A stretch of 20,256 nt of DNA from a virus, in IMG/VR virus record IMGVR_UViG_3300018421_000296, positions 1 through 20,256 of that record; one strand, written 5' to 3'. The position numbers and the translations under genes were made by a program. Below, one piece after another: positions 370 to 9,668 of the stretch. How positions within the stretch are numbered: position 1 is the stretch's first letter; each line of letters opens with the position of its first letter. A model generated the notes under the pieces. That model was given only the letters and a program-made list of their open reading frames with translations. It made no database searches and was not told where the DNA came from.

Positions 370-537
370 CTACTTGGTAGGAATCTCAAAAGAAATATCA
401 CATTCGTTTGGGTTGTTGTATAGGCAAGTTACCTTATTGCCATTGATGATTAACTCATCTGCCCAGATAGCAACGTGAAGGATATTATTTGAAACGCCTG
501 CTTTGCGAGCTTTGTTGATGATTTGTTGTTTAGTCAT
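370..537 (-). CDS. Small hypothetical early-type protein, 55 aa
   Basis: Minus-strand frame of 55 codons, too short for usual gene finders but well supported. It has a near-consensus sigma70 promoter at 578-605, a leader of about 34 nt, AAGGT 7 nt before ATG, and a TAG stop. The protein begins MTKQQIINKARKAGVSNNIL, a helical segment resembling a small HTH or ribbon-helix start. It continues with HVAIWADELIINGNKVTCLY, an alternating beta-type pattern, and ends FEIPTK. There is one Cys pair far apart (residues 38 and 46). The family is not recognised. The gene stands alone between promoters, as expected of a phage early accessory gene. Confidence 0.7.
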   Translation of the reverse strand: MTKQQIINKARKAGVSNNILHVAIWADELIINGNKVTCLYNNPNECDISFEIPTK

Positions 538-677: not shown

Positions 678-705
678 ATTATACATAATTATCGGGATTT
701 GTCAA
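678..705 (-). promoter_or_regulatory. Second, distal sigma70 consensus promoter
   Basis: The minus strand reads TTGACA (700-705), a 16-bp spacer, and TATAAT (678-683), both perfect. No ATG frame begins between it and the proximal promoter, so it gives a longer leader for 370-537 or makes an untranslated RNA. A run of A residues on the minus strand (about 740-748) and dyad module A (755-836) lie just upstream. Confidence 0.8.
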
Positions 706-754
706 GACCCAATGCACCCTATTTTAGAATTTTGTGGATTTTTTTTCGTGTTGT

Positions 755-836
755 CGTAAGTCGTTGGTATCATTGGACTTACGTCGATTGGGCGGGGGTC
801 GGCGCGTCGTAAGTCCTTATGTGCCAAGGGTTTACG
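755..836. repeat. Paired-dyad module A
   Basis: Two 29-bp dyads, 755-783 and 808-836, are separated by a 24-bp G-rich spacer. The first has perfect 8-bp arms, CGTAAGTC and GACTTACG, around a 13-nt centre. The second shares the outer CGTAA/TTACG arms and can form an 11-bp stem (with two G-U pairs) around a 7-nt loop as + strand RNA. Start-to-start distance is 53 bp. A closely matching module lies at 1378-1459 with identical spacing. No T-run follows on either strand, so these are not ordinary intrinsic terminators. Operators, an origin element or RNA hairpins are the options. Confidence 0.7.
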
Positions 837-875
837 TCGCCTAGCGGATTTGTTTGGGTGATACTGAACAGATGT

Positions 876-1061
876 TTAGAACTTTCCAAGAATGTAGGAA
901 AGCCTGTTGGAAACTACCGTTGGGCAGTATCCGGCAGGATCACTGATTCGAGCGATGTGGTATCGCTTTTGAGTACGGGCATTGACTTGACCCTTGCCCA
1001 TATCAAAGATGGCGAAGGTTTGACCGTTGACGATTTTCGTTTTGATGATCTTGATTTCCAT
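876..1061 (-). CDS. Small hypothetical early-type protein, 61 aa
   Basis: Minus-strand frame of 61 codons starting MEIKIIKTKIVNGQTFAIF and ending SNRLSYILGKF. The start is set by AAGGA about 8 nt upstream and a promoter at 1095-1122. The protein is basic, with a beta-rich N-terminus and a KRYHIARI segment, and could be a small nucleic-acid-binding fold; the family is not recognised. A longer overlapping minus frame (914-1132, Lys/Ser/Arg-rich) uses another phase, begins upstream of the promoter's expected start and has no ribosome site, so it is a shadow. A 14-mer directly after the stop (862-875) recurs after the next minus gene. Confidence 0.72.
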   Translation of the reverse strand: MEIKIIKTKIVNGQTFAIFDMGKGQVNARTQKRYHIARISDPAGYCPTVVSNRLSYILGKF

Positions 1062-1094
1062 TTTCTTTTTCCTTTTCTTTTCTTCGTTTTCCTA

Positions 1095-1122
1095 AGTATA
1101 GCAGACTTTTCTGATTTGTCAC
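1095..1122 (-). promoter_or_regulatory. Sigma70-type promoter for 876-1061
   Basis: The minus strand reads GTGACA (1117-1122), a 16-bp spacer, and TATACT (1095-1100), each one base from consensus. The expected start near 1088 leaves a leader of about 27 nt before the ATG at 1061. Confidence 0.7.
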
Positions 1123-1141
1123 TACTGAACAAATGTTTTTT

Positions 1142-1279
1142 TCAGCAACTCCAATCTTCGTACACTACTTCGCAGTGTTCGCCACAGCATGGGCAAACTT
1201 CGTGGTCGAGTTGCTCACCACTCATCTGCTCGCAGCAGCACTCGGAGAAGGCCAAGATTTCGTTGATCGTGTTTTCCAT
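1142..1279 (-). CDS. Cys-rich zinc-finger-like miniprotein, 45 aa
   Basis: 45-codon minus-strand frame, MENTINEILAFSECCCEQ and onward, containing CPCCGEHC and ending DWSC then TGA. There are nine cysteines: CCC at residues 14-16, CPCC and C around 33-39, and the C-terminal residue. Together with two His this suggests a compact zinc-binding fold and a strongly acidic surface. AAGGAAA lies about 7 nt before ATG, and a perfect sigma70 promoter lies at 1318-1346. It is below the length most gene finders accept. The family is not recognised; small acidic Zn proteins in phage early regions often inhibit host factors, but that role is only inferred here. Confidence 0.7.
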   Translation of the reverse strand: MENTINEILAFSECCCEQMSGEQLDHEVCPCCGEHCEVVYEDWSC

Positions 1280-1317
1280 TTTCGTTTTCCTTTTCTTTCC
1301 TTACTTTCTATATCGAC

Positions 1318-1346
1318 ATTATACAGACTAGACTTGAGTTTGTCAA
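1318..1346 (-). promoter_or_regulatory. Perfect sigma70 promoter for 1142-1279
   Basis: The minus strand reads TTGACA (1341-1346), a 17-bp spacer, and TATAAT (1318-1323): full consensus hexamers at the ideal spacing. The start near 1311 leaves about 32 nt to the ATG at 1279. An A-run on the minus strand (1350-1358) directly upstream resembles an UP element. Confidence 0.88.
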
Positions 1347-1377
1347 GCGTTTTTTTTTGAGATTTTTTGGAATTGGT

Positions 1378-1459
1378 CATAAGTCGTTGGTATCATTAGA
1401 CTTACGTCAATTTCACGGGGGGCGAGTCGTCGTAAGTCGTTGGTGTCACTAGACTTAGG
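1378..1459. repeat. Paired-dyad module B
   Basis: Two 29-bp dyads, 1378-1406 and 1431-1459, with a 24-bp spacer containing a G-run; start-to-start distance is 53 bp, exactly as in module A (755-836). The first dyad differs from the first dyad of module A at two positions. The second repeats the same AAGTCGTTGGT core and ends AGACTTAGG. It lies 32 bp upstream of the -35 of the 1318-1346 promoter; module A lies about 50 bp upstream of the 678-705 promoter. Confidence 0.7.
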
Positions 1460-1518: not shown

Positions 1519-1834
1519 GGTGCAGACACAATCAACCAATCCTCTCTGTGTGTCTTACCTAAACTATCCCCTTAAATAGAATAAGTAAGTATAAGAAGAA
1601 GTTGCCCCACACGCGCCACTTCGCCCTACACGATTCATATGTCTACACCAAGACCATTTATACCTGTGAAGTATCAAACAGGTACTTGGTCGTGTTGGAT
1701 AGCAGCTAGGTCTTCGTTACTTGAAGATTCTCAATACTAAAATTTTCGCTTTCGCGCTTCACAGGACTGGGTTGACATGGTGGGTCATCGCCCAGATTTC
1801 AATTTTTGCCTAGCCTCGGAGTGCTTGTTCACTC
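1519..1834 (+). ncRNA. Candidate structured RNA (unassigned)
   Basis: Several complementary arms cluster here. CCTGTGAAG (1663-1671) pairs perfectly with CTTCACAGG (1757-1765), enclosing TCTTC/GAAGA (1711-1727). One base further on is a two-tier hairpin, CTGGG-TGAC / GTCA-CCCAG (1767-1795). Others are GACACA/TGTGTC (1525-1554) and GAGTG/CACTC (1819-1834). Two mutually exclusive hairpins share 1661-1687. The possible wobble pairs favour the + strand. No promoter is visible, and no known RNA family was recognised. A 7-bp hairpin at 1889-1912 followed by a short T-run is a weak candidate end. Short stems arise by chance, so confidence is low. Confidence 0.25.
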
Positions 1835-1917
1835 GCTCGTCACTATCCTATTCAACTGGACTTGGACACGCAAACCATAGCCCTTTTTAACGGATTTATA
1901 CAAATATTCGTTGAATT

Positions 1918-1944
1918 TTGATCACTTTACGACCATTGATCACT
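1918..1944. repeat. Tandem TTGATCACT repeat upstream of late promoter
   Basis: TTGATCACT occurs at 1918-1926 and again at 1936-1944, 18 bp start to start, about 70 bp before the -10 element at 2017. Each contains the palindrome TGATCA. It could be a pair of half-sites for a regulator, or chance. Confidence 0.4.
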
Positions 1945-2013
1945 CTATTCTAGTCTAAAAGTACGAGTTTCGCAGTTTCGTTTTTGGAAAATTGTGTCTT
2001 TCTGTGTATAATA

Positions 2014-3494: not shown

Positions 3495-4293
3495 AATCTC
3501 AAAAGATGAAGAAAAATTCATTAGAGACAACCTGAATCTCGGTTTAAACCGAATAGCAACCGAGCTAGACCGAGATCCAGACAGCGTTCTCGGTTTCATC
3601 AAGAAAAAAGCTGCAAAAAATGAGTTAGAACGCCCTGCTTGGATGGATAAGCCAGAAGAACTAGAGCAAGCGCAGTATGATCTTATGTTTAGACCATACT
3701 TTGTAGAGTTGAAACAACAATTTACTGATGATGAGCTTAAATTATTCCAATACCACTGGGCAAGAATCATTTCACAGTTTAAAGATGATGTTATTCCCAC
3801 AGAAGAATTACAAGTAGTAGACTTAATTAAACTAGAACTACTCATGAACCGCGCCCTCAAATGCAACAAAGATAACATCGAACAGATATCTGCCCTAGAA
3901 AGCCTCATACTGGCCGAAAGACAGCGTGATCCAGATCAGGTAGATAGAGACAACCTTTTTAATATGGAGCGTCAGGTGGCCTCCCTGAAGGCCTCACAAG
4001 AGTCTCTGAACAAAGACTACCGTGAGCTTCAGACAAAAAAGAACAGTATGCTTAAAGAGATGAAGGCAACAAGAGAGCAGCGTGTTAAAAGACTAGAAGA
4101 TAGCAAGACAAATTTCTCTGGATGGATGACCTACCTTGTCACAAACCCAGAAGTAACAATGCAGTATGGATTAGAGATGGAGAAGATGCGACTTGCGATG
4201 CAGAAAGAGAGAGAGCGCCTAGCGGAGTTTCACAAATATACAGACGAGATGGTAGATCAACCTTTCTTAACACCAGACACGGTTAAAGATTAA
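3481..4293 (+). CDS. HTH plus coiled-coil protein, candidate small terminase
   Basis: 270 residues. Residues 6-44 (KDEEKFIRDNLNLGLNRIAT, then ELDRDPDSVLGFIKKK) look like a Myb/SANT or recombinase-type helix-turn-helix. A linker with WMDKPEELEQ follows, then a helical region and a long coiled coil at about 145-255, rich in K, E, R and Q. An N-terminal HTH, central oligomerising helices and a C-terminal tail match the layout of phage small terminase subunits, which bind packaging sites and feed DNA to the large subunit. The large terminase is in the same operon, though eight genes on. Because it overlaps the sigma gene by 14 nt, a transcription co-factor paired with the gp55-like protein is the main alternative. 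Confidence 0.5.
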   Translation: MKKGRISKDEEKFIRDNLNLGLNRIATELDRDPDSVLGFIKKKAAKNELERPAWMDKPEELEQAQYDLMFRPYFVELKQQFTDDELKLFQYHWARIISQFKDDVIPTEELQVVDLIKLELLMNRALKCNKDNIEQISALESLILAERQRDPDQVDRDNLFNMERQVASLKASQESLNKDYRELQTKKNSMLKEMKATREQRVKRLEDSKTNFSGWMTYLVTNPEVTMQYGLEMEKMRLAMQKERERLAEFHKYTDEMVDQPFLTPDTVKD

Positions 4294-4976
4294 TGATTTC
4301 AGTTGCGACCCTAACATACAGAAGAGAGAGCATACTTGAAGAGGCTGTTCAATCTTTTTTATTACAAAATTGTCCAGACTGTGAAATGGTGATACTCAAT
4401 GATCACGCAAACGTAGAGTATCGGTCCTCTTACGACAATGTTAGAGTCATAAATAGTAATCATAGATTTCCATCCATAGGGCAAAAACTAAAGTATTGCT
4501 TTAGCAATTGTAAACATAATTATATTTATCGACTAGATGATGACGATCTATTATGCGAGGGCGCAATCGAAAACTTAAAAGAAGCGATAACAAATAATCC
4601 CGGATACGATATTTATAGATCCAACAGAACTCATTATTTTCAAAATAATAACTATAAAGGTTTGTCTGATAGTATAAACAATGGAAACTGCTACACCAAA
4701 GATTATGTAGCAACAATAGAAGACTGGAACAGGTCGTGCGACGAAGATATTCACATAACATATAATCACAACGCTAAGATCTATAACTCTCCAAAACAGA
4801 CAATGATCTATAGGTGGGGCATGGAAACCTACCACATTTCTGGGATTGGCGCTGGTAAGTCACATGATGAATATTTTGATATCGCTGATAGTGCCGGATC
4901 GAAGACCTCCGGTGACTACAAGTTAAAGCCACATTTTAAACAAGACTACTACAGGATGATAAAGGAACAACAATGA
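4293..4976 (+). CDS. Family 2 glycosyltransferase
   Basis: 227 residues with a GT-A fold signature. ISVATLTYRRESILEEAVQS at residues 2-21 is the typical first strand and helix, with VILND at 33-37. RLDDDDL at 80-86 supplies the DxD motif that binds the metal and nucleotide sugar. The C-terminal half (IYRWGMETYHISGIG near 172-186) is less typical. The length is short but complete for a soluble bacterial or phage enzyme, with no membrane segment. Start and stop overlap both neighbours (TAATG at 4291-4295, ATGA at 4973-4976). The next gene makes a GDP-sugar precursor, so the pair probably form a sugar-modification cassette. Acceptor and sugar cannot be told from the sequence. Confidence 0.85.
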   Translation: MISVATLTYRRESILEEAVQSFLLQNCPDCEMVILNDHANVEYRSSYDNVRVINSNHRFPSIGQKLKYCFSNCKHNYIYRLDDDDLLCEGAIENLKEAITNNPGYDIYRSNRTHYFQNNNYKGLSDSINNGNCYTKDYVATIEDWNRSCDEDIHITYNHNAKIYNSPKQTMIYRWGMETYHISGIGAGKSHDEYFDIADSAGSKTSGDYKLKPHFKQDYYRMIKEQQ

Positions 4977-6040
4977 AAGCTATTATTTTTGGTATTACAG
5001 GACAAGACGGAAGTCACCTCGCAGACCTACTATTAGAAAAAGGCTATGAAGTTGTGGGTGTATGTAGGAGAGCCTCCACCAATAATAAGGAAAGAATAAA
5101 GCATATTCTTGATAATAAAAGTCTCAAGCTGGTGGAAGGCGACATTACTGATGCCTTTAGCGTATCACGCATACTAACTGAACACGAAGACGTAGATGAA
5201 ATCTATAACCTTGCAGCACAATCACATGTAGCTGTGTCATTTAAGCAGCCAGCCTTGACTTGGGATATTACTGGAAAAGGCTGCTTAAACATCTTGCAGT
5301 GCATGGTCGATTTAAGAATGGGCAATACTAAATTCTACCAAGCAAGTTCCAGTGAGATGTTTGGTCGTAATTATGATACAGATAGAGATCAGAATAAATA
5401 TCAGAATGAAGAAACAAAATTCATGCCGCAAAGCCCTTATGCTATTGCAAAATGCGCGGCTCATCATATTACAAGATTATTTAGAGAGGGGTACGGTCTT
5501 CACGCAAGCTCTGGAATCCTTTTTAATCATGAAGGACCACGAAGAGGTGAGACTTTTGTAACACGAAAGATTACAAAGTGGATTGGGGATTACATAAGAT
5601 TCTACAATAAGGCTATACATCCAGAGAAAAGAGTCGCAGATTCATCCATATTCACCGCAGACGACGACTCGATTATAATTAATGGACATAAATTTCCAAA
5701 GCTGCGTTTAGGAAACCTTGAAGCATTTAGAGATTGGGGGTATGCAGGAGATTACGTGGAAGCGATGTGGATGATGCTGCAACAGGGTTGTCCTGATGAC
5801 TATGTTATCTGCACCGGCAAGACCTATACGATTCGAGAGTTCTTAGACGTAGCGTTTTCACATATTGGAATCGAAGACTGGTCTAGCTATGTAGTGCAAG
5901 ACTCAGAATTTTACAGACCAGCAGAAGTAGACTATTTGCGTGGCGATTGCTCTAAGGCTAATAATCAACTTGGCTGGACACCAAAGACTTCATTCGAGAA
6001 TCTTGTAAAGATGATGGTGGAGCATGACACAAAGGGTTAA
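4973..6040 (+). CDS. gmd: GDP-mannose 4,6-dehydratase
   Basis: 355 residues of an extended SDR enzyme converting GDP-D-mannose to GDP-4-keto-6-deoxy-D-mannose, the precursor of GDP-fucose, GDP-rhamnose and GDP-perosamine. Visible motifs are GITGQDGSHLADLLLEKGY (NADP-binding) at 7-25, YQASSSEMFG near 122-131 and SPYAIAK with the catalytic Tyr and Lys. Further on are GILFNHEGPRRGETFVTRKI, the substrate-side loop, then RDWGYAGDYVEAMW and RPAEVDYLRGD. The usual Thr of the TSE motif is Ser, as in plant MUR1-type enzymes. About 25-30 residues (HPEKRVADSSIF to NGHKFPK) are inserted relative to the common form. No fucose synthase or reductase gene is seen nearby, so the host may finish the sugar. Similar genes are known in some marine phages. 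Confidence 0.93.
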   Translation: MKAIIFGITGQDGSHLADLLLEKGYEVVGVCRRASTNNKERIKHILDNKSLKLVEGDITDAFSVSRILTEHEDVDEIYNLAAQSHVAVSFKQPALTWDITGKGCLNILQCMVDLRMGNTKFYQASSSEMFGRNYDTDRDQNKYQNEETKFMPQSPYAIAKCAAHHITRLFREGYGLHASSGILFNHEGPRRGETFVTRKITKWIGDYIRFYNKAIHPEKRVADSSIFTADDDSIIINGHKFPKLRLGNLEAFRDWGYAGDYVEAMWMMLQQGCPDDYVICTGKTYTIREFLDVAFSHIGIEDWSSYVVQDSEFYRPAEVDYLRGDCSKANNQLGWTPKTSFENLVKMMVEHDTKG

Positions 6041-6557: not shown

Positions 6558-7041
6558 GTCAAGGCCATTCACAATCATTAAAGATACTAGAGAGCAAGAA
6601 GGTTACACTTTCGAGGCTAGTAGTTCTAGATATCATGTCTGCAAGGGTATGGTAACAAAAAAGCTAGACACTGGCGATTATAGCATAGAAGGCTTGGAGG
6701 ACAAGCTGTGTATTGAGAGAAAAGCAAGTGTTGTAGAGTTTGCTAACAATATAGGCCACGACCAAGCTAGGTTCATGAGAGAAATAGAAAGGATGCAAGA
6801 AATACCCCATAGATATATGGTGTTCGAGTTTTCTTTATCAGATCTTATGAATTTTCCAGAGGGGTCAGGTATTCCAGAGAGTGACTGGGGAAAGCTAAAA
6901 GTTACAAACAGGTTTATGCTAAAAATGGTCATGGAGTTCCAGATGAATCATGGTATCCATGTGATGTTTTGTGACTCAAAGAAAAATGCGAAGTGGGCTG
7001 TTCTGAGTTTAATAAAAAGGGTCAATGAATTATATCAGTAG
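6550..7041 (+). CDS. ERCC4-type nuclease
   Basis: 163 residues. DTREQ (12-16), LDTGDYSIEG (39-48) and CIERKAS (54-60) reproduce the ERCC4/XPF nuclease signature GDXnERKX3D, which cuts branched or flapped DNA using a divalent metal. The final Asp of the motif is not at the expected place (ERKASVVEF, with Glu one position on), so activity should be judged with care. No HhH2 domain or helicase is fused; it is a stand-alone phage form. The start overlaps the HNH stop by 8 nt. Adjacent to an HNH enzyme and upstream of terminase, it may resolve branched replication intermediates before packaging; that role is inferred. Confidence 0.82.
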   Translation: MGKSRPFTIIKDTREQEGYTFEASSSRYHVCKGMVTKKLDTGDYSIEGLEDKLCIERKASVVEFANNIGHDQARFMREIERMQEIPHRYMVFEFSLSDLMNFPEGSGIPESDWGKLKVTNRFMLKMVMEFQMNHGIHVMFCDSKKNAKWAVLSLIKRVNELYQ

Positions 7042-7698: not shown

Positions 7699-9668
7699 GC
7701 GACTTAAAGAAGATCAACGAGGCTTGGCTTAATCTAGACATCCAAGACGACCAACTTTTCAATCCATTCTCGATAGTAAATTTTAGAGAAGATGATTTTC
7801 ACTATAGGATGCTCTGGCTGATGACTAGGCCAGAGTATTTTTCTTTCCTATGTAAGCACATCTTCAACATAAATATATTACCATCTCAGGCTTTGTTTTT
7901 ATGCGAGATGTGGAATAGAAGGTTCCCTATGCTTATCGCAAGCCGTGGTTTCGGTAAATCATTTATCTTGTCCCTATACTCTATGATTCGCGCCCTCATC
8001 CTACCAGAACGTAAAGTTGTTGTTGTAGGAGCTGCATTTCGACAGTCTAAAGTTTTGTTTGAGTATATGGAAACTATTTGGAATAACTCTCCCGTACTAA
8101 GGAGTATGTGTGATGCAAACAGTGGGCCAAGACGAGATGTTGATCGCTGCGTTATGCGTATCAACGGTTCTCGCGTCACTTGCCTCCCTCTTGGCGACGG
8201 ACAAAAAATTAGAGGCCAGAGAGCTAACGATATTATTAGTGATGAATTTGCTTCTATTCCAAGGGATATCTTTGAAACTGTTGTTGCCGGTTTTGCTGCT
8301 GTTAGCTCTGATCCTATAGAAAACGTTAAAAGATTAGCGGCCAAAAAGAAAGCGCAGGAGCTTGGCATAATAACAGAAGAAGAATCGGATTCAATAATAG
8401 AGAAAAAAGACAATCAGATTATACTCAGCGGTACAGCTTATTACGACTTCAATCATTTTGCTGAATATTGGAAGAAATGGAAGTCTATTATTAAAAGCCA
8501 AGGAAAAAAAAGTAGATTAAGGGATATCTTTGGGGAAGACCCGCCAAAAGACTTTAACTGGAAAGACTATTCGATTATACGTATTCCTTACGAGCTTTTA
8601 CCAGAGGGCTTTATGGACGCCTCACAGGTCGCCAGATCGAAAGCAACGGTTCATGCCGGAATATATCAGATGGAGTTTGGAGCTTGCTTTACGCGCGATT
8701 CTCAGGGCTTCTTCAAGCGTACACTAATCGAGGCTTGTGTCGCAAGCGATAAAGAACCAATTAAAGATAGCGATGGTAATGAAATTAATTTCCAAGCGCA
8801 GCTTCGCGGTGATCTTAAAAAGCAGTATATATTTGGAGTTGACCCTGCATCTGAGGTTGATAACTTTAGCATTGTGGTTATAGAAGTAAACAAAGATCAT
8901 AGACGTATTGTTCACTGCTGGACAACAAATAGAGAACAGCACAAAGAAAAGGTTAAGAGCGGATACTCTTCAGAGTCTGATTTTTATGCCTACTGCGCTA
9001 GAAAGATTAGAGATCTTATGAAGATATTTCCGTGCATCCACATATCTATGGACGCTGGCGGTGGCGGTATTGCTGTAATGGAATCTTTACACGATCAAGA
9101 CAAGATTAAAGATGGAGAAGTTGCTATATGGCCAACGATAGACGATAATAAACCTAAAGATACAGACGATCAAAAGGGCTTGCATATTCTTGAGATGTGT
9201 CAATTTTCTAAATACGACTGGTTAGCAGAGGCTAATCACGGTATGCGAAAAGATTTTGAGGATAAGGCGCTATTATTTCCAATGTTTGATTCTGTAAGCC
9301 TTGGTCTTTCAGAAATAGAAGACGAGCTAAAGGGAAGAACGTTCGATACTTTAGAGCAATGCGTAATGGAAATAGAAGATCTTAAAGATGAATTAGCTAT
9401 GATTCAAATTACACAAACAACTACGGGTCGGGATAAATGGGATACGCCTGAAACCGTTATTGGAACAGGCAAGAAGGGTAAACTTAGAAAAGACCGCTAC
9501 TCTGCATTACTGATGGCTAACATGGCTGCTAGAACGCTCGCTAGACTGCCAGAGGCCAGTGTTTACAATTTCTATGGCGGCTTTGCAACGGTTGAAAAAG
9601 TTGATAAAAAAGGCGACATGTATAGCGGTCCCAACTGGTTTACAGATTCCGTGAGTGATATTTACTAA
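7695..9668 (+). CDS. Terminase large subunit
   Basis: 657 residues; the ATP-driven packaging motor and DNA-cutting nuclease docked on the portal. The ATPase domain has a Walker A-like ASRGFGKS (82-89), Walker B IISDE (180-184) and the coupling motif LSGTAYY (244-250). The C-terminal RNase H-like nuclease domain begins near 375, with acidic residues in FGVDPASE (D383) and ISMDAGGGG (D453), and a late KDRYSALLMANMA that probably supplies the third Asp. Length and motif order match T4 gp17-type terminases. An insert of charged residues (215-240) separates Walker B from the coupling motif. It is the last gene of the first + strand operon, and a 70-nt gap holding promoter P2 follows. Confidence 0.95.
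   Translation: MSDLKKINEAWLNLDIQDDQLFNPFSIVNFREDDFHYRMLWLMTRPEYFSFLCKHIFNINILPSQALFLCEMWNRRFPMLIASRGFGKSFILSLYSMIRALILPERKVVVVGAAFRQSKVLFEYMETIWNNSPVLRSMCDANSGPRRDVDRCVMRINGSRVTCLPLGDGQKIRGQRANDIISDEFASIPRDIFETVVAGFAAVSSDPIENVKRLAAKKKAQELGIITEEESDSIIEKKDNQIILSGTAYYDFNHFAEYWKKWKSIIKSQGKKSRLRDIFGEDPPKDFNWKDYSIIRIPYELLPEGFMDASQVARSKATVHAGIYQMEFGACFTRDSQGFFKRTLIEACVASDKEPIKDSDGNEINFQAQLRGDLKKQYIFGVDPASEVDNFSIVVIEVNKDHRRIVHCWTTNREQHKEKVKSGYSSESDFYAYCARKIRDLMKIFPCIHISMDAGGGGIAVMESLHDQDKIKDGEVAIWPTIDDNKPKDTDDQKGLHILEMCQFSKYDWLAEANHGMRKDFEDKALLFPMFDSVSLGLSEIEDELKGRTFDTLEQCVMEIEDLKDELAMIQITQTTTGRDKWDTPETVIGTGKKGKLRKDRYSALLMANMAARTLARLPEASVYNFYGGFATVEKVDKKGDMYSGPNWFTDSVSDIY

Follow-up and report, generated by a model that had tools for sequence, protein, structure and literature searches.

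Paired 29-bp dyads phased to early promoters: a candidate transcription-control site in phages probably infecting Planctomycetota

The window analysed here, a complete IMG/VR record of 20,256 bp, carries two copies of a module in which a pair of 29-bp dyads lies upstream of a leftward sigma-70 promoter. Judged from sequence, spacing and placement, the dyad pair is very likely an undescribed transcription-control site, neither an RNA hairpin nor a replication repeat. We consider it probable that the dyads serve as paired operators, from which a putative dyad-binding protein acts on early promoters from one face of the helix. An operator pair for early genes was one of the roles proposed in an earlier note on this DNA, and it is now well supported by the spacing kept in relatives, by the 10.5-bp phasing to sigma-70 promoters and by the location in a leftward early region. 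The module is a widespread and precisely built element that has no cultured representative, and it provides a testable handle on early-gene control in phages that probably infect Planctomycetota.

The dyad modules of the window

A terminase large subunit and a Clp-type protease are encoded in the window. The remaining ORFs fit a tailed phage, and the left end is made up of small leftward ORFs. The two modules and their surroundings are as follows.

370..537, minus strand: small leftward ORF downstream of the module-1 promoter, without a Pfam or PHROG match
678..705, minus strand: module-1 promoter, TTGACA-16-TATAAT, 12/12 consensus positions
706..754, no strand: A/T-rich stretch from dyad A of module 1 to the -35, a gap of 49 bp
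755..783, plus strand: dyad A of module 1, CGTAAGTCGTTGGTATCATTGGACTTACG, 11-7-11, the promoter-proximal candidate operator
784..807, no strand: spacer of module 1, 24 bp, G+C-rich
808..836, plus strand: dyad B of module 1, CGTAAGTCCTTATGTGCCAAGGGTTTACG, 53 bp from dyad A
876..1061, minus strand: small leftward (early-type) ORF between both modules, without a Pfam or PHROG match
1318..1346, minus strand: module-2 promoter, TTGACA-17-TATAAT, 12/12 consensus positions
1347..1377, no strand: A/T-rich stretch from dyad A of module 2 to the -35, a gap of 31 bp
1378..1406, plus strand: dyad A of module 2, CATAAGTCGTTGGTATCATTAGACTTACG
1407..1430, no strand: spacer of module 2, 24 bp, G-rich
1431..1459, plus strand: dyad B of module 2, CGTAAGTCGTTGGTGTCACTAGACTTAGG, 53 bp from dyad A

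The earlier note had described four 29-bp dyads in two pairs with a period of 53 bp and 24-bp spacers, and all of its coordinates are correct, as is its remark that the dyads at 755 and 1378 differ at two positions. A consensus minus-strand promoter does lie by each pair (12/12 at 705-678 and at 1346-1318, with the pairs upstream), and no T-run follows the dyads on either strand. The spacers keep the 24-bp length given for them but are G+C-rich rather than specifically G-rich. Three of the four window dyads match a degenerate pattern with at most one mismatch, where none is expected from 100 shuffles; the fourth, at 808, was recovered by a position weight matrix that gave no matches in shuffled DNA at 13 bits or more. 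The first degenerate pattern, which also gave three unrelated matches, was dropped as too loose. No terminator matches were obtained at the window dyads. Rfam yielded no match either, whether the whole window was searched at gathering thresholds or the 2.3 kb surrounding module 1 with E values of up to 1.

Each dyad follows an 11-7-11 plan, consisting of CGTAAGTCGTT, 7 variable bases and AAGGACTTACG. The 11-bp half-site, with CGTAAGTCGTT as its consensus, has a nearly invariant TAA core, and the 7-bp middle is freely variable. Across 217 non-redundant modules, A4, A5 and T26 do not vary, and T25 almost never does. Dyad B is found in both orientations. A half carrying GTC is frequently combined with one carrying ACC or CCC, which we read as a sign that the two half-sites of each dyad may be recognised separately. 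The spacers have a G+C content of 76-93%, with a symmetric centre in the classes with dyads 50, 52 and 53 bp apart. In relatives, spacers of the 53 class contain a symmetric GGC-SS-GCC core and those of the 50 and 52 classes have similar G+C-rich centres; since the core is symmetric at the exact centre, the module overall is pseudo-two-fold symmetric. Both spacers of the window itself fit the GGC-SS-GCC core poorly.

Two other conserved non-coding blocks lie beyond module 2. The block at 1680-1990 (plus strand), between module 2 and the rightward operon, is kept in 12 relatives with and without dyads. Its predicted plus-sense RNA has 51 pairs, 21 of them with two-sided compensatory change, and no Rfam match; the block is likely a new structured RNA. 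A second, shorter block at 1504-1590, directly past the last module, is conserved with L016, L011, L013, L008 and L026 and is possibly a rightward promoter or RNA leader.

Recurrence in related phages

Recurrence of the pair and of its 53-bp spacing in relatives had been set beforehand as the check on the module, and both recur. Eighty relatives were collected by terminase, with the dyads playing no part in the choice, and were searched with the weight matrix, which was derived from the dyads of the window and of a few relatives. Including extended regions from nine records, 81 dyads were found, forming 46 modules. Twenty-eight of the 34 complete pairs are spaced at exactly 53 bp, or about five helical turns, 3 at 52 and 3 at 51, and the remaining modules are single. 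Whole-record scans revealed arrays of nine modules over 11 kb (G008), at least five (G010) and, in the 174-kb record G016, eight over 10 kb with one weak site elsewhere. The repeat unit returns every 1.1-1.8 kb.

When the dyad alone was used to scan IMG/VR, at least 120 loci were obtained, far above the few expected by chance on our estimate, and these contain at least 796 dyads. Neighbouring dyads are spaced at 53 bp (at least 142), 52 (at least 42), 50 (at least 52) or 41-42 (at least 39), and the spacing is mostly constant inside one locus. Every locus owes at least one of its dyads to selection by the pattern, which biases any consensus statistics from these loci towards it; spacing and promoter distance were no part of the selection. 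In fourteen records of 113-238 kb the pattern matches number from several to about 35 per record and, among the matches listed, fall mainly in one region. The dyad arrays span roughly 10-25 kb. None of the isolate phages carries the module, and the structural proteins have only distant relatives among isolates.

Some relatives, such as G001, have no dyads. In L091 (G001), another G+C-rich repeat, of the ACCCGGCCGGGGGGGCCCGG type, is found at the corresponding intergenic places (746-772, 3870-3896, 5606-5632, 6895-6921, 8496-8522 and others), so the dyad element appears to be replaceable. The T-tracts between this repeat and the promoter look helically phased.

Helical phasing to promoters

When a strong sigma-70 promoter lies within 200 bp, dyads are upstream of it at least 311 times and downstream at least 23 times, with both dyads of a pair counted, in the at least 120 loci. 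The phasing set was restricted to the nearest dyad, and promoters more than 75% alike were removed, leaving 117 gaps from 60 loci. These dyad-to--35 gaps peak at 17, 28-29, 39-40, 49-50 and 59-60 bp. Tested at 10.5 bp, they give a Rayleigh R (vector strength) of 0.63, with a p value of about 6e-21 and a best period of 10.3, compared with a maximum R of 0.30 across 2,000 uniform simulations, for gaps that are not fully independent despite the 75% identity filter, as modules of one genome share ancestry. Within the clade of the window the gaps cluster at 39-42, 48-51 and 59-61 bp; the module-1 gap of 49 bp is on a peak, and the module-2 gap of 31 bp is 2-3 bp off the 28-29 peak. We regard the phasing as the decisive result: because the gaps are phased to the promoter, the dyads should act at the DNA level, on a helix face set by the polymerase of the adjacent promoter.

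Hosts and chromosomal dyads

Searching one genome per bacterial or archaeal species for the dyad yielded 27 stretches, 15 of them in Planctomycetota genomes. One 9-kb contig, JAAEMV010000596, has at least 7 modules (L223, L228) and is probably a phage contig inside a planctomycete bin. We infer that phages with the module probably infect Planctomycetota. The phage record G016 also encodes, at 3359-4639 of L258 (minus strand), a DUF1501 protein (PF07394, E 8e-81), a hint at a planctomycete host; the DUF1501 family is typical of planctomycetes.

Planctomycete chromosomes also contain single dyads, which abut tRNA 3' ends within 2 nt. The tRNAs concerned are Glu (twice), SeC, Ala, Asn, Met (twice) and a further tRNA-Ala. 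Planctomycete integrase elements at different tRNA genes share the 29-bp dyad (L226, L229, L233, L236, L244 at 99-1445, L247 and L252). At L244, the neighbour gene is a tyrosine integrase (PF00589) whose reading frame runs through the dyad. ORFs resembling integrase C-termini by eye are present in L229, L236 and L238, two of which gave no Pfam match when tested. In a Phycisphaerales chromosome (G046; L320, L328, L330, L332), intergenic clusters have dyads 84 bp apart, or eight turns, mixed with AACGAACCCAA-type repeats.

Alternative explanations

The earlier note had also named RNA hairpins as a possible role. Read in this way, the dyads would sit at the 3' ends of leftward genes and signal termination, processing or antitermination, as their perfect or near-perfect stems and the position of the module between the end of a leftward gene and the next promoter might suggest. 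However, the arms do not covary: in the 217 non-redundant modules no compensatory change was found, with Watson-Crick matches at or below independence (in dyad B, observed versus expected pairing is 0.36 versus 0.49 for 6/24 and 0.42 versus 0.54 for 7/23). The test is a conservative one, since the selection pattern would favour pairing, and the lack of compensatory change argues for a DNA site. Arms drifting without compensation had been named in advance as evidence against the module; such drift is what we see, and it tells against the RNA reading and not against a DNA site. Unlike the G+C-rich hairpin of an intrinsic terminator, with its U-run, the dyads are also followed by no T-run; they have no Rfam match, occur as dyad B in both orientations and, if taken as hairpins, leave the promoter phasing unexplained. 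A GC hairpin in the spacer was likewise considered and rejected; stems of at least 5 pairs occur in 13.6% of spacers and in 13.9% of shuffles, so they reflect composition only. The plus strand seemed at first to show G-T wobbles, an impression that disappeared once dyad B was known in both orientations. We hold RNA hairpins to be extremely unlikely, and we place an origin of replication or a partition region (iteron- or parS-like) equally low. Repeats at fixed spacing, restricted to one region of the genome, would be in keeping with the latter, and origin iterons were another suggestion of the earlier note, one that is not supported. Iterons are clustered direct repeats at an origin, where an initiator binds them, whereas successive modules here are separated by 1.1-1.8 kb, with a single module for each transcription unit and in phase with its promoter, the several to about 35 dyads per record are placed by promoter over roughly 10-25 kb, and dyad-free relatives retain the same array.

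Inverted arms around a variable centre of 6-8 bp are the usual geometry of a tyrosine-recombinase core site, and the 11-7-11 dyads have it. They could accordingly be integrase-type sites, with the array a set of integron-like cassettes of promoter, genes and paired site. The same motif at tRNA 3' ends by integrase genes or remnants in planctomycetes (with PF00589 in L244), the return of units every 1.1-1.8 kb and one gene-promoter-module block displaced between relatives (L031 1080-1544 corresponds to L087r 4482-4948) all point in that direction. Apart from that block, however, the array blocks are colinear between relatives, even with a dyad-free one, rather than shuffled as cassettes, and a search for PF00589 in 24 phage records, 20 of them of 69-238 kb, returned no match for a cognate recombinase, while the control genomes were all positive. 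The integron idea is rejected because the arrays are colinear and no recombinase was found; recombination also gives no prediction of a 10.5-bp promoter phasing, and recombinase sites in general we judge very unlikely. Selfish palindromes of the REP type, spread through phage and host, are a further candidate, and the PVC superphylum is known to have REPs (PMC3733652). Planctomycete chromosomes can hold many copies (36 versus 0 in controls for G046, 114 versus 9 for G048), some of them in the intergenic clusters with 84-bp steps. A GTAG/CGTC REP is a hairpin with a stem of 5-13 bp and an unpaired tag at one end. Against this, no unpaired GTAG or CGTC end tag is apparent at the dyads, whose flanks, read from alignments by eye, are often a symmetric TCGT/TCGA; the stems do not covary, and fixed spacing and promoter phasing are not features of REPs. 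A REP origin is thus highly improbable.

Proposed mode of action

With a transcription-control site as the preferred reading, each module would be a two-fold symmetric DNA operator, in which two 29-bp dyads flank a G+C-rich centre. A putative dimeric protein with 11-bp half-sites would occupy both dyads cooperatively, bridged over that centre, and once bound would meet the RNA polymerase of the neighbouring early promoter, a leftward sigma-70 one. Since the pair spacing (41-42 or 52-53 bp and, less exactly, 50 bp, which at 4.8 turns is no exact multiple) and the gap to the -35 both step by one turn, the bound protein would keep to one helix face with respect to the polymerase. That a protein binds the dyads is very probable, and that it acts on transcription initiation is quite probable.

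As to the direction of control, we lean towards activation. If the -35 is counted as beginning at -36, dyad A has its centre near -67, -79, -90, -100 or -110. Activation is favoured over repression because these values approximate the ladder on which class-I activators sit. Sites of that class, for which CRP at -61.5 to -103.5 is an example, bind an activator that contacts the alpha C-terminal domain of RNA polymerase and are effective only at one-turn steps; the dyads share with them a place upstream of the -35 at helical-turn steps, a resemblance in geometry alone. Promoters with dyads are about as near consensus as dyad-free promoters, so nothing in them points to a need for activation, and neither promoter quality nor spacer length separates activation from repression. 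The paired dyads could instead be repressor operators that shut off the early promoters, for instance via DNA looping between modules. The adjacent promoters are near-perfect in consensus and would need no activator, and loops could arise between the several modules of a genome, every one of which lies upstream of an early promoter. However, the sites are upstream of the -35, without core promoter overlap in the main gap classes, and the tight promoter phasing better fits contact with the polymerase; repression by looping is in our view unlikely.

The protein that binds may be host-encoded rather than a phage product, a preference that we hold tentatively. It is mildly favoured because no regulator candidate tracks the dyads in 8 records and because the motif also occurs in planctomycete chromosomes; the phage genes that do track dyad presence in those records belong to glycosyltransferase-like families or to a few families whose function is not clear. 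The sharing of a motif between phages and integrase-tRNA junctions is the most surprising part of the analysis, given the 24 phage records without a tyrosine recombinase. It is conceivable, if rather unlikely, that a tyrosine-integrase-type site of planctomycete tRNA-linked elements was adopted by phages as a paired, helix-phased control of early promoters, read by an integrase-fold protein encoded by the host or the element. If so, resident mobile elements and infecting phages would share one recognition code, and an element could, for example, sense or tune a phage. If one protein reads both the phage and the chromosomal sites, phage transcription would be linked with chromosomal mobile elements.

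Comparison with known systems

Searches of open-access literature gave no description of the module. HrcA acts at CIRCE, an inverted repeat of about 27 bp with 9-bp arms and a 9-bp centre that is usually single and found at heat-shock operons; the dyad is an inverted repeat of similar length but of other sequence, and CIRCE differs further in being usually a single site. The attachment regions of planctomycete tRNA integrases have the same 29-bp motif with its variable 7-bp centre, but there it is single, abuts a tRNA by an integrase gene or remnant and has no phased promoter downstream. CRP-type class-I sites resemble the module, in geometry, by lying upstream of a sigma-70 promoter at one-turn steps; here the site is a 29-bp dyad with 18 bp between half-site centres, paired around a G+C core. 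Many copies of one protein-binding-type site per phage genome are also known from mycobacteriophage stoperators, which are described as immunity-repressor sites that also stop elongation (PMC9283540), and from cluster O mycobacteriophages, whose 17-bp dyads are mostly away from promoters (PMC4351075); neither kind is described as coming in pairs with a constant helical distance.

By analogy, the nearest functional analogue is protein p4 of phi29. This elongated dimer recognises long imperfect inverted repeats with a 6-15-6 consensus, each of which takes up a dimer independently. Once bound it contacts RNA polymerase, and one set of sites both represses early and activates late promoters (PMC3100819). 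The p4 sites number four, serve one promoter cluster and are of other sequence, with sites 1 and 3 overlapping the -35; p4 itself is phage-encoded, whereas here the binder is putative, the sites lie upstream of early promoters and the modules form arrays of many copies. What the two systems have in common is paired long imperfect inverted repeats in a phage genome, adjacent promoters for the host sigma factor, and A-tracts.
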